This document shows positions 8,448-17,268 of a DNA stretch of 64,000 nt, one piece after another. Each line of letters starts with the position of its first letter. Position 1 is the stretch's first letter. The notes beneath the pieces were generated by a model that was not told the origin of the DNA, ran no database searches, and saw nothing but the letters and a program-made list of their open reading frames with translations. A program made the translations under genes and the position numbers. The DNA is from Ruminococcus sp. Its GTDB lineage: Bacteria; Bacillota; Clostridia; Oscillospirales; Acutalibacteraceae. The DNA is taken from NCBI GenBank assembly GCA_017457955.1, contig JAFTGL010000012.1, positions 1-64,000 on the forward strand, written 5' to 3'.

Positions 8448-9683
8448 TTATATCCTCTTTGCCACAACGACAAATCTGCCGTCGGACGTATGATAGTTAC
8501 AGGTCGACAGCGTGATCAGCTGATCGCCGTAGGCCGGCGTGACGCCTGTATCATAGAGCGACATCGCCTTGACGTTGGCGACATAGGTGTCGAAGGTGTA
8601 CTCATCATCCAGATTCTTGTATTCGTAATACTTGAACACATCGTCATCGTCGTCATAGACCTGGCTGAGGAATACAGCGCAGATCTCGTAATCGCCGATA
8701 GAATTTAAGGTATCGAAATGGATGATGTTGTGCTGTGTATAGAAGTCATAATCCTCATAATCGGGCAGGGAACCGAACATGGTGCCGTTGATCATGTGGT
8801 GACCGTAGATCAGATAGTGATTGCCGTCGGGATTGCACTCAGCGTCCATGAACAGACAGCCGCTGTCGGAATAATCGCCGTCGAAATCGGTGTGCAGATA
8901 ATACTCGGGATCGTTCGGTGTATGCATGACGGGATAGTTGACGACCGTATCGTCGATCTTGATCCATCCGAAGAAATCGCTGTTCATATTGTACAGCTCC
9001 TGATAATTCTGACGGTCGGGATCGACAAGGGACGCCAGCTGATCGAACGCTTTTCTCGCGTCAAAGGACAGCCACAAGGTCCTGCCGATCATCACCAGCG
9101 CGACGATCAGCGCAATGATCATGATAACGCGGGCAATAACAGCGCCTTTGCCCGCACGCTTCTTGCGGGGCGCTCTCTCATAATCATCATCGTACTGAGG
9201 ATACTGATTGCGGGAATTGCGGTACTGACGGCTCTGCCTTTGGGTATAGCGATCGTCTGGGTAACGGTTCCTCTGCTGATAACTCTGACGGTCGTCATAC
9301 TGCGGATAGCCGCCTTGACGGGGACGCTGCTCGGAATAGCGCCGCTGAGAATACTGCTGTTCGCCGTAATAGCCGTCGGAATACTGATCGCGGTCATAAT
9401 ACTCTCGCTGCGGATTGCGCTCCTGACGGTAATCGTTATAAAAACCATTATCCTGACGGTATCCGTTTTGCGGATAGCTTCTCTGCGGCTGACGCTCACC
9501 GTAATACCGCTCGTTCTGAGGGCGGTACTGGCGGGGGGTCTCGGAATAGCCGCGGTTGGACGCGGCGGTATCCTGATAAGGGCTGTCGACGTCAAAGCTG
9601 TCCCGCTCGGTTACGGAAGGCTCGGGTTCTTCGCGGAAACGGCGTCCGCGATAATTGGGATCGTTGAAATCTTGATAACTCAT
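8448..9683 (-). CDS. srtB: Class B sortase with long disordered cytoplasmic N-terminus
   Basis: Transpeptidase that links surface proteins to the wall. 411 residues. The first ~175 are Tyr/Gln/Arg/Pro-rich (repeats like YPQYDDRQ, QRRYSEQ), then one span (AVIARVIMIIALIVALVMIG), then the catalytic domain with NYPVMHTPNDPEYYL, the His in YLIYGHHM, the Cys in LITLSTCNYH and the Arg in GRFVVVAKR. Length is far above typical SrtB because of the N-terminal tail. ATG 9683 (MSYQDFND) is chosen, though no clear Shine-Dalgarno precedes it. A terminator ends only 21 bp upstream, so expression may depend on readthrough from the anchored-protein gene. Confidence 0.88.
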   Translation of the reverse strand: MSYQDFNDPNYRGRRFREEPEPSVTERDSFDVDSPYQDTAASNRGYSETPRQYRPQNERYYGERQPQRSYPQNGYRQDNGFYNDYRQERNPQREYYDRDQYSDGYYGEQQYSQRRYSEQRPRQGGYPQYDDRQSYQQRNRYPDDRYTQRQSRQYRNSRNQYPQYDDDYERAPRKKRAGKGAVIARVIMIIALIVALVMIGRTLWLSFDARKAFDQLASLVDPDRQNYQELYNMNSDFFGWIKIDDTVVNYPVMHTPNDPEYYLHTDFDGDYSDSGCLFMDAECNPDGNHYLIYGHHMINGTMFGSLPDYEDYDFYTQHNIIHFDTLNSIGDYEICAVFLSQVYDDDDDVFKYYEYKNLDDEYTFDTYVANVKAMSLYDTGVTPAYGDQLITLSTCNYHTSDGRFVVVAKRI

Positions 9684-9704
9684 AAGCAATACATCCAATA
9701 CATC

Positions 9705-9738
9705 AAAAAAGACGGCGGCGGGAAATCCCGTCACCGCC
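9705..9738 (-). terminator. Terminator after the anchored-protein gene
   Basis: A 12-bp stem (9711-9722 with 9727-9738; one mismatch, two wobbles) with an AT-only loop and TTTTTT on the minus strand. It separates the wall-anchored protein from its likely sortase and may set their ratio. Confidence 0.75.
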
Positions 9739-9753: not shown

Positions 9754-10206
9754 TTATTTCTGTGCTTTCTTCTTCTTGCTGACTACGATAGAGATGATGA
9801 TACCGACAACAGCAACGACCGCGATACCGATCCAAACAAAGATCATAAAGTTATCGCTGGTCTTGGGGGTGTTAGCGGTCTTAGCGGCGGTAGTAGCGGC
9901 AACGGTAGCGGCGACAGTCTCAGCCTCGGTAGCAGCTGCGGTCTCGGCAGCGGTCTCAACGGTAGTCTCAGCCGCTGTCTCTTCAACGGTCTCTTCGGCT
10001 GCAGTCTCAGCCTCGGTCTCAGCGGGAGCCTCGGTCTCTTCAGCCTGATTGTCGTCGGTAGGCTGCTCGCCCTCGTTATCGCCGACATCGGTCAGAATCT
10101 CGTTGCCGTTATCGTCATAAGCGACAGCAGCATTGGCGGGAATGGTCAAAGCAAACATAGAAGCTGCGATCATGACACAGAATAAGATAGATAATACACG
10201 TTTCAT
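9754..10206 (-). CDS. Small secreted protein with LPXTG-like anchor (TPKTSD)
   Basis: 150 residues: a signal peptide (MKRVLSILFCVMIAASMFA, cleavage likely after ANA), a 90-residue acidic stretch rich in Glu/Thr/Ala/Val repeats (ETAAE, TVEETAA), then NTPKTSD, a membrane span (FMIFVWIGIAVVAVVGIIIS) and a KKKK tail. This is the layout of a sortase substrate; TPKTS resembles class B motifs (NPxTx). The sortase gene is next downstream. It looks like a spacer or scaffold rather than an enzyme. Confidence 0.85.
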   Translation of the reverse strand: MKRVLSILFCVMIAASMFALTIPANAAVAYDDNGNEILTDVGDNEGEQPTDDNQAEETEAPAETEAETAAEETVEETAAETTVETAAETAAATEAETVAATVAATTAAKTANTPKTSDNFMIFVWIGIAVVAVVGIIISIVVSKKKKAQK

Positions 10207-10660: not shown

Positions 10661-10687
10661 AGCCCATAGCTGTCACAGCTATGGGCT
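10661..10687 (-). terminator. Hairpin ending the PqqD/PFIP operon
   Basis: A perfect 11-bp stem AGCCCATAGCT/AGCTATGGGCT with a 5-nt loop, 30 bp past the lipoprotein stop. The U-run on the minus strand is weak. Confidence 0.55.
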
Positions 10688-10716
10688 ACGTTTACCTATT
10701 TAATTTTAGTCAACGA

Positions 10717-11196
10717 TCAACGCGGGATAAAGGGGAGCTCATACTCATCCGGGACTAATGTAGGCGCTACAACATCCGATTCGGAAGAACTGCTTTGCGA
10801 CTGAGAGGAACTGCTCTTCGATCCTTCGTCCTTCGGCTGAGAGACAGCGCCGCTCCCCGGATCAGAGTCACCATGCTGCGATTGAGGAGCGGAGTCATTG
10901 TCCTCGTCATCAGGCTGATAACCTGTTTGCTCATCGCCGGCATTTGACTGCTGATCGCTTTGAACGGAAGATGAGGCTTTATCCTCAGACTTCTTATCCT
11001 CAGCGGTGGTTTCCGCTTGTGTAGGCTTTTGATCGGATTTCGCCTCAGTTGCCTTAGCGTTAACCGTTTCTGTGGCGGACTGCGTCGCGGTATCCGGCGT
11101 AGCCTTAGCGTCTTCTTTTTTATCTTCTCCGCAGCCCGCAAGCATACAAACGCTTAACGCAAGCGCGGATAAAAACAACAATATTCTTTTAACCAT
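10717..11196 (-). CDS. Low-complexity lipoprotein ending in ELPFIPR
   Basis: 159 residues. The signal ends in the lipobox LAGC (cysteine at residue 22), so the protein is predicted to be lipid-anchored outside the cell. The mature part is a Lys/Glu/Thr then Ser/Gln/Asp-rich linker (KSSSSQSQSSSSES) without a folded domain. The last residues, DEYELPFIPR, match the ends of two other proteins of this locus. The ATG at 11196 has GGAG six bases upstream. It follows the dockerin gene by 23 bp, probably in the same transcript. Confidence 0.85.
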   Translation of the reverse strand: MVKRILLFLSALALSVCMLAGCGEDKKEDAKATPDTATQSATETVNAKATEAKSDQKPTQAETTAEDKKSEDKASSSVQSDQQSNAGDEQTGYQPDDEDNDSAPQSQHGDSDPGSGAVSQPKDEGSKSSSSQSQSSSSESDVVAPTLVPDEYELPFIPR

Positions 11197-11219
11197 TATT
11201 TCTCCATTATTATCTATGA

Positions 11220-11582
11220 TTATTTTTTGGGGATAAACGGCAATTCATACGGATCCGTGGCTTTCGGCGTTGTCGGATCGGGAATCGTTACAGTTTCTCC
11301 GATGTGATAAGGATCCTCAGATCCTGCCAAATGGCGCTGGATCCATGTTACGTCTTTGATATCCACACCGTCGCCGTCAACATCAGCGGCTCTTTCATCA
11401 AAAACAGCGGGTTCGAGAAAACCGAGCTTTCTCTGGATCAAGGTCGCGTCTATGATTTCTACTTCACCGTTGCCGTCAACGTCTCCGCGAATATAACTGC
11501 TCGCGGCAGACACCGAAAGGGCCACGCCCATTACGGACAAAAGACAAATTACAGCTAAAATGATCGCACAGATTTTTTTCAT
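11220..11582 (-). CDS. Small secreted type I dockerin protein ending in ELPFIPKK
   Basis: 120 residues: signal peptide (to about VSAAS), then a dockerin made of two calcium-loop helices, DVDGNGEVEIIDATLIQRKL and DVDGDGVDIKDVTWIQRHL. The second loop is one residue shorter than the standard 12-residue loop, so its calcium binding may be altered. There is no catalytic module. After a short Pro/Thr linker the protein ends DPYELPFIPKK. Dockerins bind cohesins or act as simple calcium folds; no cohesin is in the window. The ATG at 11582 follows AGGAGG. Confidence 0.9.
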   Translation of the reverse strand: MKKICAIILAVICLLSVMGVALSVSAASSYIRGDVDGNGEVEIIDATLIQRKLGFLEPAVFDERAADVDGDGVDIKDVTWIQRHLAGSEDPYHIGETVTIPDPTTPKATDPYELPFIPKK

Positions 11583-11649
11583 GATAAAACCTCCTGAAAA
11601 AGATATTAATTACTCAGCTTAAGGCAGAAAGGGTTCACCCGCAATCCGC

Positions 11650-12330
11650 CTATATCACTAAATCGATCTCATTATCGTCTTCCTCTGAAAAAACAAATTC
11701 GCCTATTTTGTGATCCACCGCAACCAAAAGAGCAGGCAGCATCAGGCAAACCGCTGTACCGGCAAAGCCAAAGAAATACAGAAATCTGCTGAGGAAGGTG
11801 AGCTTTAGGCTCATTTCGATATTCGCGCGGTATTTGATCAACATGATACATTCCATGATCAGACACGCGAGATAGAACACAACGATGATGCTCGACAAAA
11901 CCACCTTGAGCGTCTGTTTTTTCCTGAATTCCTCACTGCTTCTGAGGGTAATGAAATAAAATACCAAAGCGATCGCGCCGAGCTGGGATAACACATATAC
12001 AACGCAGTTCAAAACGGAAGCAGTATCGGAAGCTTTCAGATTTCCGAACAGAAAAGGTATGTTGATCAGCTTAACGAAAAAAAGAAGTATCATACCGCCT
12101 AAGAACAGTATCGTACGCGCGGCGGCGGCTTTGCGGTTGTCGGCAAACATCAAAAACGAAGCTACAGTGAGCACCAGATAGAAGGGCAGTCCAATCAGTC
12201 TGCCTAATCTGTTCGTCTCCATAAATATCATCAAATAAACCTGGTAGGCTGTAAACAAACCAAAGGACAGCGCCGTTAACAATCTGACGAAGAACTGAAA
12301 TTTTTCGTTGTATAAAAGTGATTCTTTCAA
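11650..12330 (-). CDS. Six-span integral membrane protein of the PqqD locus
   Basis: 226 residues, about six hydrophobic segments (for example LLTALSFGLFTAYQVYLMIF, ILFLGGMILLFFVKLI, VVLSSIIVVFYLACLIMECI) and an acidic C-terminus. I do not recognise the family. The start is TTG at 12330, supported by GAAGGGAAAATA just upstream and the lack of a nearby ATG. It lies 31 bp after the PqqD gene. A transport, protease or sensor role in handling the short peptide is possible but unproven. Confidence 0.75.
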   Translation of the reverse strand: MKESLLYNEKFQFFVRLLTALSFGLFTAYQVYLMIFMETNRLGRLIGLPFYLVLTVASFLMFADNRKAAAARTILFLGGMILLFFVKLINIPFLFGNLKASDTASVLNCVVYVLSQLGAIALVFYFITLRSSEEFRKKQTLKVVLSSIIVVFYLACLIMECIMLIKYRANIEMSLKLTFLSRFLYFFGFAGTAVCLMLPALLVAVDHKIGEFVFSEEDDNEIDLVI

Positions 12331-12361
12331 TATTTTCCCTTCTTTTTACAGTTTTTTGCGG

Positions 12362-12622
12362 TCAATCATCGATCGCGCCGATTTCCCTGAGCCTGTTGAC
12401 GGCTTCGGCGACATCGGCTTTGATCACTTCTCTGTCGCCGTCAAAGCGCGCACAGAGGGCGTCAACGATTCTTTCTTCGGTGGTGTCCTGCAGCAGGCAT
12501 CCGGCGATCGCCGAGAGGGTCTTGTTGCCCTGTATCAAGCCATGAAAATCCGCATCTCCGGTGGGGACGATCAAGGTCTCGCCGCCGACCTGATGGCGGA
12601 TAAAGTTTTCGTTCAACTTCAT
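12362..12622 (-). CDS. PqqD-family protein (RiPP recognition element)
   Basis: 86 residues, the normal size of a stand-alone PqqD fold: LIVPTGDADFHGLIQGNKT, then TTEERIVDALCARF and an end VAEAVNRLREIGAIDD. Family members bind the leader part of short precursor peptides and present them to modifying enzymes. The ATG at 12622 is chosen because AAAGGATG precedes it and the PqqD fold begins there. The 47-aa peptide gene is 196 bp upstream on the same strand and is the obvious candidate client. No radical SAM or other maturase is in the window. Confidence 0.88.
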   Translation of the reverse strand: MKLNENFIRHQVGGETLIVPTGDADFHGLIQGNKTLSAIAGCLLQDTTEERIVDALCARFDGDREVIKADVAEAVNRLREIGAIDD

Positions 12623-12645
12623 GATAGCACATCCTTTATACTGAC

Positions 12646-12745
12646 ATTCAACAAAAGCCCGATACCGTCGCGCTTTGGCTTCTGTTGAATACCGGTATAA
12701 TATCATCTGCGCCGCCGTTTCAAGCGCAACGCTCAAAACGGCGGC
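12646..12745 (-). promoter_or_regulatory. Two long hairpins between the peptide gene and the PqqD gene
   Basis: A 14-bp stem with one mismatch pairs 12646-12659 with 12677-12690, and a perfect 10-bp stem pairs GCCGCCGTTT (12711-12720) with AAACGGCGGC. No U-run follows either. They could be processing or mRNA-stability elements that give different amounts of peptide and PqqD. Confidence 0.5.
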
Positions 12746-12818
12746 GTGATAATACATTATGTTCGATTTGATCTTTGTTCAGCGGTCAAAAAGACCATCC
12801 TACTAAAAGATGAGGATC

Positions 12819-12962
12819 TTACGGGATAAAGGGCATTTCGTTATCGCCGGGATTAAGAGGGGGACGAGTAGGTGTAGGGGTCTCACCCGAAGTGGTGATG
12901 ATATCCTCCGCATCGAACTGTGTCACGTCCATATACAGACGCTCATAGGTTTCTTTATTCAT
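12819..12962 (-). CDS. 47-residue precursor-like peptide ending in EMPFIP
   Basis: The start ATG at 12962 comes 21 bp after the stop of the surface-protein gene, with GGAAAGGA upstream. The N-terminal half, MNKETYERLYMDVTQFDAED, looks like a helical leader. IITTSG follows, then a Thr/Pro-rich part and the end NPGDNEMPFIP. There is no signal peptide. It resembles the many short 'Tyr-x-x-…-Phe-Asp-x-Glu-Asp-(V/I)-I-T-T-S-G' peptides of gut Firmicutes. The PqqD neighbour suggests a modified peptide; the modification is unknown. Confidence 0.8.
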   Translation of the reverse strand: MNKETYERLYMDVTQFDAEDIITTSGETPTPTRPPLNPGDNEMPFIP

Positions 12963-12983
12963 CGTTTATCATATCCTTTCCAA

Positions 12984-15900
12984 TTAAGCTTTAAAGAACT
13001 CGTTAGCCGCCTGGTTGTACAGGTAGAGCGCGGAAACGAGAGCCTTAGCGGATTCACTTGCGCTGCCGCTTTCCAATACTGTCTTAGCATAATCGAGAGC
13101 GGAATAGTGGAATTCTACGCCGTTGACCTCAAAATACTGCTGATTGTCGAGTTCTGCCGCAGGGATATCGGTTACATCCACCCAGTAGTACCAGTTGGAC
13201 TGGCTGCCGTCGTATGCGGTCTCATCTGCCGAACCGGCGCCTGTAGGAATCTCAAAGTACATTCTGAGGGTAGTCTTGGACAGGTAGATAACACTGGGAC
13301 CGTAGAAATTCGCGTCTGCCTCGGGATGAATGGTAGACATGTCGGTAGCAGTTCCTTGGATAGCATCGCCGATCATCTCAGGTGTAACAGTAGCCATCTC
13401 GTAACCGGGAATGTTGTCATAAACAGCAGGAGCGTTCATCTGAGCCTGGAAGACATCCTGTGCCTTTGCGCCGTAGTTGAGCATTTCCTTCATCAGAGTC
13501 TTAGCCGCGTCAGCCTTGTCAGCGGGAATATTGCAGCCTACAGGATCGTCAATGATTCTCTGTGCATACTGCTGTACGCTATAGGTGTCGGTATCATCCT
13601 GTGCTGCGCCGTTGATGACAACGTCATAAGCTTTGATGTCATGCGCCATGTACGCAGCGGGAACAAAGCAGGTAACCTTGATGTAATCGCCGGACCGTTC
13701 GAAGTCGGTGACTGTGTTGTTAGTGTACTTGTCACAGTCGAAGGTCACGGATACAGAATTAACATCCGCAGCAGCGATGCCCGCGGCAGCAGGATCGAGG
13801 TAGAAGATCAGGCCGATATCGCCGTGCAGGGTAAGACCGTAACCGACGAAGAGTTCGGGAGCCTCGCCTACAGTATAGACACCGGGTGTCTGGGTCTCGA
13901 TCCAAGCAAGACCCTCAGGCAGGGTCATGGTGTTGGAAGTAGCAGTGACCTCGGGAGCTTCGTTCTCCTGATAGGTGTAATCGCCGATCTGTACGCCGTT
14001 GGTGCTGGTGATAGTCGGATTACCGGAGATGGTCAGAGTGGGTGTGCCGCCGGGATAGTTGCAGCTCTCTACTACGATCGCGTCGCCGGTCGCGTTAGCG
14101 CCGTTGCCGTTGTGGGTGTAATCAGCCTTTGCGCCGTTACCGATGATGGTACCGCCCTTGACGTCCAGAGTACCGGACTTCTGATAGATACCTGTTGCGC
14201 CGGTGATCTCGCCTCCATTGATGGTGGTGGTGCCGGTGCCGGGCAGATAGATAGCGGTTACATTGGAAGTAATGACCGCGCCGTCGTTGACGGTGATGGT
14301 CGCGTTCTTGGTATAAGAACCGTTGGTAGCAATTGCAAAGTCGTTGCCGCCGTTGATGGTACCGTTTACGGTCAGGCTCTGGTTCTCAGAAGTCAGAGCA
14401 ACACAACCTTCAACCGTTACGCCTTCGCCGATGGTAACATTATTGTACTTGCCGCTTACACCAATAGCCTGATCTGCGGAAGAAGCTACGAGCTTGCCGC
14501 CCTTCTCAGCGCTGGTGTCAACCAAAGCAAAGTTCTTGGGAGAAGATGCAGAGCCGGCTCTGGTAAGCAGGATACCGTAATCGGAAGCGGTAGAGGTCAG
14601 AGTATGACCGTTCAGGTCAAGAGTAATATTGGAAGCCAGGACTGTAGGAGCGATGCGCGCGGTTGCGTTAATGTCCTTGAGCAGCTTATAAGTGCCGTTG
14701 GCGCTTAATATGGTAGAACTAAAGGTCTTGTAGCTTACCTTACCGGCAGTTGTGGTATACTCGATATCTGCTTCTACAGTGGTGTAGGTTGTTACGCCTT
14801 CTGCTGTTGTAGATTTTACAACATAAGCGCCCTCAACAGTAGGATTGCTGAACTTGAAGCCGTTCTTAGCAACCTTGAGAGTCTCATCGGGGGTCATAAC
14901 GTAAGCGGGAGCGTCCTTAAGCAGGGTGATAACGTCGCCGTTAGCAGCCGCCGCAGCCTCAGCGAAGGTCATATATCCGGTGCCGTTGACCTCTGCCGCA
15001 TAATCAGGAGCCAGAGTCTGCGCGCCCTCTCCGTCGTCTACCCACTTGTAGCCTTCGGGAGCAGCCTGAGCAAAGTCGTTAGCCTTGGTGACTGTGAGCT
15101 TTTCGGGGGTTGCAGCGAGTACGTTCTTAGCGGTCTGGTCAAGAACGATATCACCGTTCAGAGTGCCGCTCTCCAGAGTCAGGGAGAAGCCGTCCTTCGC
15201 GTCGCTCTTGGAAGCGTAAACCTCAACGTTGCCGTTGATGACGCTGTTGCCCTTAACGGTTACGTTAACGGACGGATAAGAAGCGTAGCGGCATACATCG
15301 AAAGCGATTTTGCCTTCTCTTGCATTGATGGTAGTATCGTTGATAACTACGTTACCGTTGTTGTTGGACAGAACATAGTTGCCGTCGCCTGCCATATTGG
15401 TACCGTCAATTACCATGTTATCCAGAGTCAGGTTGCTGTAGTTCTGGATGATCATCTGAGCCTTGTCAGAGGTGAGCTTACCATTCTTAAAGGTGATGGT
15501 GTTGCCCTTCAGAAGCTGGAACGCCTGTGTCTCTGTACCGGTAGAACCAACAGTAGTACCGTCTACAGTGTAGGTGTGGCCAGCAAAGTCAACGGTCAGA
15601 CCTGTAGCAAACTTGCCCTGAGGAGCCTTGATACCGTTGCCTGTGCTGTCAGCCAGAACAGTGATGGTATCGCCGTCAACAGCTGCCGCAAACGCAGCCT
15701 CGAGGGTCTCATACTTGGTGGAGCCGATCTGTGCTACATAGTCGACAGGAACCAGAACGCCGTTGTCGTCCCACTTGTAGTCAGCAGGAGCATCCTGAGC
15801 GAAAGCAGCAGCCTTAGTGATAACAGCTTTTTCGGGAGTTGCAGCGAGTACGTTCTTTGCAGTCTGGTCAAGAACGATATCGCCGTTCAGCGTGCCGCTC

Positions 15901-16856
15901 TCCAGAGTCAGGGAGAAGCCGTCCTTCGCGTCGCTCTTAGAAGCATAAACCTCAACGTTGCCGTTGATCTCGCTGTCGCCCTTAACAGTTACGTTAACGG
16001 ACGGATAGCTGCTGTAGCGGCATACGTCAAACGCAATGCAGCCTTCTCTTGCAGTGATGGTAGTATCGTCGATAACGACGTTACCGTTGTTGTTAGACAG
16101 AACATAGTTGCCGTCGCCTGCCATATTGGTACCGTCGAGTACCATGTTATCCAGAGTCAGGTTGCTGTAGTTCTGAACAAGGATCTGAGCCTTTGTAGAT
16201 GTGATGGTACCGTTCTTGAAGGTGATCGTGTTGTCCTTCAGAAGCTGGAAGCCGTTGGTTTCAGTACCGGTAGAACCGACTGTGTCGCCGTCTATGGTGT
16301 AAGTGTAACCTGCAAAGTCAACGGTCAGACCGGTAGCGTACTTAGCCTTTGCGACTTTGATACCGTTGCCTGCGCAATCAGCCAGCAGAGTAATGGTCTC
16401 GCCGTCAGCAGCTGCCGCAAACGCATCCTCGAGGGTCTTGTACTGGGTGCCGCTGATCTCAGCAACGTATACAGGGTTGATTGTCAATAAGCCTGTGCCG
16501 CCATCATAGTTCAGTACATAGTTACCGCCAGTCGCCTCAAACAAAGCGTGTCCACCGTTGTCGTGCATGAGCTGGGAGTAGGTCTCTGTTGAGCTACCTG
16601 CCTGTGCATTACCGCGGTAATAATCTGTAGATCCATCATTAGCGACAATCTCGAACTCATAGTTACCTGCAGGAATAGTCAAGTTGAAATCTGTGGAAGA
16701 CTCGATATCTTCCATTGCCCAAGAACCACTGAAATTGCTGTTCAGCTTAAAAGTCCATGTCGCAGCGCCTGCCGAAATCGGCAGAACCGAGAACATGCCA
16801 ACGATCATCAGCACTGCGAGCAGTATACTGATCGGTCGTTTGGTTTTTTGAATCAT
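12984..16856 (-). CDS. Giant secreted surface protein with tandem 244-residue beta-helix-like modules
   Basis: 1290 residues. A signal peptide ends near SAGAATW. Residues about 130-620 hold two near-identical 244-residue modules, each starting YxTLExAFAAA and rich in ITFKNG, LTLDNMV and GTLNGDIVLD, as in right-handed beta-helix proteins; a third, shorter module starts near residue 630. The C-terminal ~250 residues form a separate domain (from FVGYGLTLHGDIGLIFYL). No LPXTG, dockerin or SLH motif is seen. The ATG at 16856 follows AAGGAGGAAT. First gene of the operon that includes the peptide and PqqD. Confidence 0.88.
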   Translation of the reverse strand: MIQKTKRPISILLAVLMIVGMFSVLPISAGAATWTFKLNSNFSGSWAMEDIESSTDFNLTIPAGNYEFEIVANDGSTDYYRGNAQAGSSTETYSQLMHDNGGHALFEATGGNYVLNYDGGTGLLTINPVYVAEISGTQYKTLEDAFAAAADGETITLLADCAGNGIKVAKAKYATGLTVDFAGYTYTIDGDTVGSTGTETNGFQLLKDNTITFKNGTITSTKAQILVQNYSNLTLDNMVLDGTNMAGDGNYVLSNNNGNVVIDDTTITAREGCIAFDVCRYSSYPSVNVTVKGDSEINGNVEVYASKSDAKDGFSLTLESGTLNGDIVLDQTAKNVLAATPEKAVITKAAAFAQDAPADYKWDDNGVLVPVDYVAQIGSTKYETLEAAFAAAVDGDTITVLADSTGNGIKAPQGKFATGLTVDFAGHTYTVDGTTVGSTGTETQAFQLLKGNTITFKNGKLTSDKAQMIIQNYSNLTLDNMVIDGTNMAGDGNYVLSNNNGNVVINDTTINAREGKIAFDVCRYASYPSVNVTVKGNSVINGNVEVYASKSDAKDGFSLTLESGTLNGDIVLDQTAKNVLAATPEKLTVTKANDFAQAAPEGYKWVDDGEGAQTLAPDYAAEVNGTGYMTFAEAAAAANGDVITLLKDAPAYVMTPDETLKVAKNGFKFSNPTVEGAYVVKSTTAEGVTTYTTVEADIEYTTTAGKVSYKTFSSTILSANGTYKLLKDINATARIAPTVLASNITLDLNGHTLTSTASDYGILLTRAGSASSPKNFALVDTSAEKGGKLVASSADQAIGVSGKYNNVTIGEGVTVEGCVALTSENQSLTVNGTINGGNDFAIATNGSYTKNATITVNDGAVITSNVTAIYLPGTGTTTINGGEITGATGIYQKSGTLDVKGGTIIGNGAKADYTHNGNGANATGDAIVVESCNYPGGTPTLTISGNPTITSTNGVQIGDYTYQENEAPEVTATSNTMTLPEGLAWIETQTPGVYTVGEAPELFVGYGLTLHGDIGLIFYLDPAAAGIAAADVNSVSVTFDCDKYTNNTVTDFERSGDYIKVTCFVPAAYMAHDIKAYDVVINGAAQDDTDTYSVQQYAQRIIDDPVGCNIPADKADAAKTLMKEMLNYGAKAQDVFQAQMNAPAVYDNIPGYEMATVTPEMIGDAIQGTATDMSTIHPEADANFYGPSVIYLSKTTLRMYFEIPTGAGSADETAYDGSQSNWYYWVDVTDIPAAELDNQQYFEVNGVEFHYSALDYAKTVLESGSASESAKALVSALYLYNQAANEFFKA
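15006..16470 (-). repeat. Two tandem coding repeats of about 732 bp
   Basis: Within the surface-protein gene, about 16470-15739 and 15738-15006 are close copies with a period of about 732 bp (244 codons). Identity is high over long stretches, including synonymous sites, so the duplication is fairly recent or kept alike by gene conversion. Outer boundaries are approximate. Confidence 0.8.
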
Positions 16857-17268
16857 AAATTATTCCTCCTTAATGAATTTGAAAAAATGCCAAAAGATTG
16901 TTTTCATTTGGGTCTGCCCGCTGACCATTATATTGTAACAATATCAGGCATTGGCTCCGTTCTGAGCCAAACAAATCAAAAACAAAAGATAACAAACCCG
17001 AACGCGCAAAGCGCACGTTCTGCTATTCATCGCCCGATTTGCAGAGCAAAACGGACGGAGAATACATTTTAATCACTAAGCAGCCAATGATCAATTCACG
17101 CCTTGCGGCTGGGCGCATAATATTTGTACACCCGAATTAATCTTGTCTACTTAACAGGCGTTTGCCTGCCAGATCACATGTTCCCCTATCATAATTCTTT
17201 TATGAAAACTATATATTATTTTTTGGTAATCTTGGATTTATTATCTAATATTTTAACGAAAATGTCAA
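16857..17268 (-). promoter_or_regulatory. Promoter and ~375-nt leader of the surface-protein/peptide operon
   Basis: TTGACA (17268-17263), 17 bp and GATAAT (17245-17240) form a promoter far upstream of the start codon at 16856. The intervening ~375 nt hold no convincing gene, but several inverted repeats (for example AGGCAAACGCCT near 17157 and AACGTGCGCTTTGCGCGTT near 17010). A second TATAAT at about 16930 has only a poor -35. I recognise no known riboswitch. Confidence 0.55.

Follow-up and report, generated by a model that had tools for sequence, protein, structure and literature searches.

A PqqD locus of Ruminococcus sp. in which a precursor-like peptide, a dockerin protein and a lipoprotein end in E[LM]PFIP, and its resemblance to linear polyphosphorylated peptide clusters

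The window analysed here is a 64-kb stretch (64,000 nucleotides, nt) of Ruminococcus sp. (assembly GCA_017457955.1, contig JAFTGL010000012.1, positions 1 to 64,000). On its minus strand it carries six genes, for a giant surface protein, a 47-residue peptide, a PqqD-family protein, a membrane protein, a dockerin protein and a lipoprotein. A check of the open reading frames (ORFs) of the whole window, together with Pfam matches for the PqqD and dockerin products, confirmed the gene order given in the original prediction, as well as its central observation that three of the products end in E[LM]PFIP. The features of the locus are as follows, in the direction of reading; RRE stands for the recognition element of a ribosomally synthesized and post-translationally modified peptide (RiPP).

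12984..16856, minus strand: giant secreted surface protein of 1290 amino acids (aa), with long repeats seen by eye
12984..13877, minus strand: unnamed C-terminal domain of the giant protein, about 300 residues (its last 297), found with phmmer/hmmsearch
12819..12962, minus strand: precursor-like peptide of 47 aa, with the leader MNKETYERLYMDVTQFDAEDIITTSG, a variable core and the end GDNEMPFIP
12362..12622, minus strand: predicted discrete RRE of the PqqD family, 86 aa (PF05402 at 3.8e-9 on a 131-aa frame)
11650..12330, minus strand: integral membrane protein of 226 aa, no Pfam family over cut-off
11220..11582, minus strand: secreted single-dockerin protein with the tail DPYELPFIPKK (PF00404 at 1.7e-9)
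10717..11196, minus strand: lipoprotein with a Ser/Gln/Thr-rich linker and the tail DEYELPFIPR (lipobox LAGC by eye)

A PqqD start at 12757 was rejected in favour of 12622 as the most likely one, which gives the 86-aa protein: its relatives align from MKL onwards, and close relatives have that length. The peptide lies upstream, with 196 nt between its end and this start. The dockerin segment passes the Pfam threshold (PF00404, 38.2 bits versus a cut-off of 22.9), and the protein has no other Pfam domain, its only further feature being the ELPFIP tail. The family of the membrane protein recurs in 11 of the fetched tail loci. The reduced gene order of the window is also seen in two close relatives (L129 and L132; loci, genomes and contigs are numbered here with L, G and C), again without maturation enzymes.

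By comparison, the 47-aa peptide is assigned to a large family of predicted leader-core peptides. The leader is conserved and the core variable among 18 aligned members, none of which had a Pfam or NCBIfam match below E 0.05. A profile search found the family in 105 of the 161 genomes of the genus (E ≤ 0.01), with up to 12 copies per genome, and the leader profile found it in 32 of 291 genomes of the class, that of the window included, with up to 27 copies per genome. Two of these class genomes, G376 and G177, have 27 and 15 leader-type matches, a strong expansion of the family. The window genome itself carries further copies on C6 (ending DDELPFMPNR) and C3. Leaders of the genus have a Tyr in 89 of 91 cases and F.[TA] in 59, and [YF]xxP in none; among 17 peptides of the class, [YF]xxP is present in 14, 12 of them with Tyr (strict count).

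The PFIP end of the window peptide is real but does not define the family. Among 95 distinct peptides, which come from the best-scoring or tail-linked loci and are not a random sample, 17 have an E[LM]PxxP-like end and 22 more another E[LM]P end; naming them a PFIP family was rejected, as their endings vary. The peptide of L028, likewise encoded upstream of a PqqD gene, ends in PNGM. The peptides of L188 and L194 end in EIPFMPIPFIPNL/GL, a doubled PFxP motif.

The PqqD product of the window is placed by comparison among the predicted discrete RREs. A profile built from seven PqqD relatives matches the RREs of lasso peptides, TbiB1 at 5.3e-8 and TfuB1 at 2e-5, and a phmmer search of solved structures with the window protein as query returned TbiB1 at 0.026 and one chance match. 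The same search with the PqqD protein of L031 gave only haemagglutinin matches, which were discarded as chance. Residue numbers N33 and D70, given in the text of PMC13381572 for LppB, the RRE of the linear polyphosphorylated peptides (LPPs), recur in the window protein, a coincidence that is not used as evidence.

The peptide is very probably the client of this PqqD protein, as had been proposed, because PqqD genes and family peptides are adjacent and co-occur across genomes. Adjacency was scored between the best 90 of the PqqD matches listed (E ≤ 9e-20) and the peptide matches listed, so that the peptide counts are lower bounds: at least 23 of the 90 lie no more than 600 nt from a family peptide, always on the same strand, and in at least 22 of these cases the peptide is upstream. 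It is not the case, then, that PqqD orthologues are never near such peptides, a possibility that the original prediction had raised against itself. Per genome, 51 of the 161 genus genomes have both a peptide (E ≤ 1e-10) and a close PqqD relative (E ≤ 1e-20), 10 only the peptide, 8 only PqqD and 92 neither (P 3e-23, a value that ignores kinship). The co-occurrence check suggested for the PFIP tail was also run: tail and PqqD (E ≤ 1e-15) are found together in 33 genomes, the tail alone in 11, PqqD alone in 33 and neither in 84 (P 1e-7, kinship again ignored).

A maturase had been described as absent and as having to act in trans, unless PqqD has another role. It is indeed absent at the window locus, but candidates are known beside PqqD in relatives, namely a signal-peptidase-like protease and a PF14907 nucleotidyltransferase. 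In L028, an uncultured Clostridia record identical to L140 of the genus genome G150, the order is peptide, PqqD, a fusion of the protease with the nucleotidyltransferase, membrane protein and tailed dockerin protein; the fusion matches PF14907 at 6.5e-40, and its peptidase part is TIGR02228-like at 3.6e-9, below the cut-off of that model. Genes for tailed dockerin proteins and lipoproteins are interleaved with PqqD, protease and nucleotidyltransferase genes in L106 and L128, and tailed genes with PqqD and the nucleotidyltransferase in L099. L117 has a row of tailed lipoprotein, kinase-like gene (3.2e-28), PqqD, protease and an ATP-binding cassette (ABC) pair of ATPase and permease. The Bacilli locus L031 reads surface protein, peptide, surface protein, peptide, kinase-like protein, PqqD, protease, an unrelated gene, ABC and nucleotidyltransferase. 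The kinase-like gene is found in cis in L031, L033 and L117, and the protease has, by eye, the Ser/His/Asp motifs SM.P, LHR and GDN.

The window genome encodes similar proteins elsewhere. Two more PqqD genes lie on C7, each followed by a signal-peptidase-like protease with a sub-cut-off match to TIGR02228 (8.8e-7, at L142, and 4e-4). An ABC exporter (PF00664 and PF00005) adjoins the third PqqD locus of this genome (L145, also on C7), not the window locus. A kinase-like gene stands alone at C1:17281; its product matches the L031 protein at 4.2e-34 and has a GTGKST loop by eye. Because the candidates sit at these other loci, the maturation enzymes, as far as found, would act in trans in this genome. 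At 7857-8528 of L145, in the kinase position between the PqqD and protease genes and the ABC genes, lies a frame that seems, by eye, to lack the ATP loop and has no family match; its relative with the loop is the isolated gene on C1. A further RiPP-type cluster of another kind is seen at 8043-11639 of L035, where PqqD stands beside a radical S-adenosylmethionine (SAM) protein, a 92-aa peptide and, as judged by eye, kinase-like and nucleotidyltransferase-like proteins.

A protein with the C-terminal domain of the giant ends no more than 600 nt upstream of 66 of the 95 distinct peptides; the remaining 29 include six at the end of a locus and several with only a fragment upstream. For 70 of the 95, an ORF on the same strand that is 90 aa or longer ends -1 to 30 nt upstream. 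When eight copies of the domain were compared with Pfam, six had no match at 0.1 and two had sub-cut-off matches only. In L031 and L032, both from Bacilli, large proteins are likewise encoded ahead of the peptides, and 17 of the 29 class loci scanned hold a family peptide, always after a same-strand ORF, which exceeds 400 aa in 16 cases and lies within 25 nt in 14.

The tail was searched for in the 161 genus genomes with the DNA pattern GARHTNCCNTTYATHCC (for E-x-PFIP), the reversed pattern serving as control. The pattern gave 98 listed places in 60 genomes, versus 11 control matches (counted from the tables). From these, 69 places in 44 genomes were picked by hand as C-terminal, and a later check confirmed 68 of them, the exception being G035:C48:34440. 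PFIP ends thus recur in related loci, and their absence from orthologous loci, the other outcome considered in the original prediction, was not borne out. The remaining places are internal, chance or unread; an aminotransferase with IELPFIP, a nucleotidyltransferase with EIPFIPLKG and short frames were rejected as tails in the genus. Among 300 genomes of the family outside the genus, 76 places were listed in 62 genomes (four of them in the window's own genome) versus 31 control matches, and the pattern there is therefore mostly chance; two of the 30 loci read, L276 and L294, have convincing tails. Seven of the pattern places, all in G620, seem to belong to a single repeated element. At about 1500-1540 of L043, the frame of a dockerin-type protein closes immediately ahead of an in-frame ELPFIPA, so that the tail was seemingly lost or the record is in error.

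The tail mainly marks secreted dockerin proteins and lipoproteins. Among 62 distinct proteins from the fetched loci with E[LM]PF[IV]P no more than 8 residues from the C-terminus, 31 are dockerin-like and 24 are lipoproteins (55 of 62 together), 4 are small peptides and 3 are others. Tyr precedes the motif in 47 of the 62, and 0-7 residues follow it, one or two in 57, within the limit by which the set was chosen. Of 49 loci, 10 hold a tailed dockerin protein as well as a tailed lipoprotein. The 62 proteins use 47 different 18-mer codings for the tail, and therefore the protein sequence is what is kept; the three codings of the window differ pairwise by 3 to 5 of 18 bases and are therefore not fresh copies of one DNA piece. 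A test for an LPXTG-type sorting signal failed, as the 62 tails are followed by neither a membrane span nor a basic end. A literature search found nothing relevant on the LPFIP tail, on the leader motif strings, or on PqqD combined with dockerin or with the partner families of the LPP type. The recognition tag that had been proposed is compatible with these data, and the tail is probably an epitope common to the exported peptide and the two secreted adaptors.

We consider it somewhat probable that the locus represents the variable portion, tied to surface proteins, of an LPP-like RiPP system in a Clostridia branch, with the tail serving as an epitope for a common partner. PqqD would bind the leader of the peptide that is made right after the giant protein; a kinase would phosphorylate the core near a conserved Thr/Ser; the protease would cut off the leader and the ABC pump export the core. 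Trimming and modification of the window peptide inside the cell are probable. The later steps are put forward with less confidence. On the surface, a core with the E[LM]PFIP end may bind the common partner, to which the lipoprotein and the dockerin protein, as fixed adaptors, may present the same epitope; this partner could be held at the membrane by the lipoprotein and on a cohesin by the dockerin protein. Its likeliest identity would be the ~300-residue domain of the giant proteins. A bolder proposal, which we regard as unlikely in its full extent, is that E[LM]PFIP is a new C-terminal surface address: a single receptor, most likely that same domain, would recognise it on the membrane-tethered lipoprotein, on the cohesin-bound dockerin protein and on an exported phosphopeptide, and LPP-like peptides would in this way regulate the attachment of the giants to the cell or build it.

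Several observations weigh against the LPP-like reading. Genes for a protease, a kinase, a nucleotidyltransferase and an ABC protein are all missing from the window locus itself, and a search for PF14907 in the window genome, whose assembly is 74% complete, gave no match. The kinase-like gene is present in 156 of the 161 genus genomes, hence is not specific to the system and may serve other purposes; no Hpr kinase model matched it, and its label comes from the order of the genes and from an ATP loop recognised by eye. PqqD relatives are nearly ubiquitous at E 0.001 (144 of 161), and the PqqD profile matches LppB (9x8z) only at E 0.83. In L029 (71% identical), the PqqD gene comes after two ABC genes, and neither a peptide nor a tail was found at that locus. 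The tail appears in only L028 among the nine named PqqD loci, and 11 of the 44 tailed genomes have no close PqqD (E ≤ 1e-15) and 6 no peptide match. PFIP is one of many endings and not that of most peptides. Genus leaders lack the Pro of the YxxP motif, unlike most class peptides, and the step to F-x-[T/A] is, by eye, 6 residues versus 9 in the LPP motif as given in the text of PMC13381572. Finally, no result here names or shows a binding partner of the tail.

The same data can be read in other ways. The PqqD protein and the peptide may be LPP-like while the tailed dockerin protein and lipoprotein are unrelated adaptors, whose epitope the peptide has copied by convergence or as a decoy. Such an arrangement would account for the E[LM]PxxP-like end in only 17 of 95 peptides and for the many tailed genes that stand alone, without PqqD or peptide; 40 of the 68 checked tails do not lie within 5 kb of one of the best 90 PqqD genes. 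The other 28 do, however, 27 of them on the same strand, and in L099, L106, L117 and L128 the tailed genes are interspersed with those for PqqD, protease, nucleotidyltransferase or kinase-like proteins. Both observations speak against unrelated adaptors, and we hold this explanation to be rather unlikely. It is doubtful, too, that the tail directs processing or ligation by an extracellular enzyme, as in a sortase system without the membrane anchor, with the exported peptide as substrate or competitor. The tail is invariant while the linkers vary, and several genomes hold isolated tailed genes at scattered places, the distribution expected for substrates of an enzyme that acts genome-wide; yet only 0-7 residues follow the tail, with no membrane span or basic end, and the tail is not linked to any candidate enzyme. 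The class B sortase encoded nearby (8448-9734) has an LPXTG-like neighbour of its own, and its cluster shares no gene with the other tail loci compared; a role for it was rejected.

We consider it quite improbable that the peptide is left unmodified and acts, in the cytoplasm or after secretion, as an assembly factor (chaperone) of the giant protein upstream, with PqqD as its carrier. The short gap that separates the peptide from the giant protein (-1 to 30 nt for 70 of the 95 peptides) would suit a chaperone, as would the many peptides without PqqD close by, but the leader-core pattern argues against it, and so does the recurrence of protease, nucleotidyltransferase, kinase-like and ABC genes beside the same kind of PqqD.

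Outside the locus, the class B sortase matches TIGR03064 at 6e-42 with 143.6 bits, just below the cut-off of 153.75, and adjoins a small LPXTG-like protein (9754-10206) with the motif NTPKTS. Between 48000 and 64000 of the window the G+C content drops from about 52% to 39%, and the ORFs there resemble, by eye, an integrative conjugative element, with a TraG/VirD4-like ATPase, a Sel1-like-repeat relaxase, a second sortase and a DNA primase-like protein.

Adaptors of cellulosomes and amylosomes work by pairing of dockerins with cohesins. The small secreted dockerin protein of the window resembles such adaptors, and cohesins were found in 149 of the 161 genus genomes at E 0.001 (over cut-off in 143); unlike those adaptors, its only other feature is the ELPFIP tail. 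Resemblance to the SynChlorMet cassette is confined to the kinase-like protein of L033, which matches ScmC (TIGR04249) at 3.1e-6 (26.8 bits, cut-off 125), and no radical SAM gene was noticed in the window locus. Paeninodin-like lasso peptides, according to the text of PMC13381572, likewise have an RRE, an HprK-like kinase, a nucleoside triphosphate (NTP) transferase and an ABC pump. Unlike their clusters, the loci of our relatives contain a signal-peptidase-like protease; no lasso macrolactam synthetase or B2 protease was noticed by eye in the loci read, for which no profile search was run.

The closest counterpart is the LPP system, published in 2026 for the lppA-K-B-S-D-N cluster of Paenibacillus alginolyticus (PMC13381572); we found no further paper on LPPs. 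As described in the text of that paper, the RRE LppB recognises the leader by way of its Tyr and Pro, LppK phosphorylates a Ser of the core, and the SipW-like protease LppS, helped by LppB, cuts off the leader, whose motif is YxxPxVLxHQxIxFETxxS / Px9Fx[T/A]. A word search of this text, supplements aside, found no 'Clostridia', 'surface' or 'dockerin'. Measured against this description, the window locus likewise has a discrete PqqD-family RRE beside the precursor and belongs to a set of short precursors with conserved leader and variable core; a SipW/archaeal-type protease, an HprK-like kinase and an MsbA-like ABC pump are represented by candidates in relatives or in trans, a PF14907 NTP transferase by those of relatives, and no cyclase was noticed by eye in the loci read. 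The candidate new system of the original prediction is hence not wholly new, its gene set resembling the LPP clusters; its peptide family is one without a Pfam or NCBIfam match. Unlike the LPPs described there, it has a Clostridia host and a leader of the form YxRx...F-x-[TA]-EDVI-x-TS, in which the spacing is shorter and, in the genus, the Pro is missing, and the test for the LPP leader motif failed. The precursors are numerous within a genome and mostly follow a surface protein that carries one unnamed domain; the end of the core is, in some genomes, common to secreted proteins, and in the window genome the genes are split between loci.

According to the text of the defining paper, LPPs have no known role. 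In this large Clostridia branch, most of the precursors examined are encoded directly after surface proteins, many with one unnamed domain, and the question becomes a direct one: whether the mature peptide is a ligand of the surface protein, and whether the adaptors occupy the site that it uses. The peptide family, the domain family and the C-terminal motif are all without an above-cut-off match in the Pfam scans and, for the peptide, the NCBIfam scans. Because the genus leaders are without [YF]xxP and their spacing differs from that of the LPP motif as published, the system is not filed as a strict LPP member; we regard it as a variant that would work like the LPPs.

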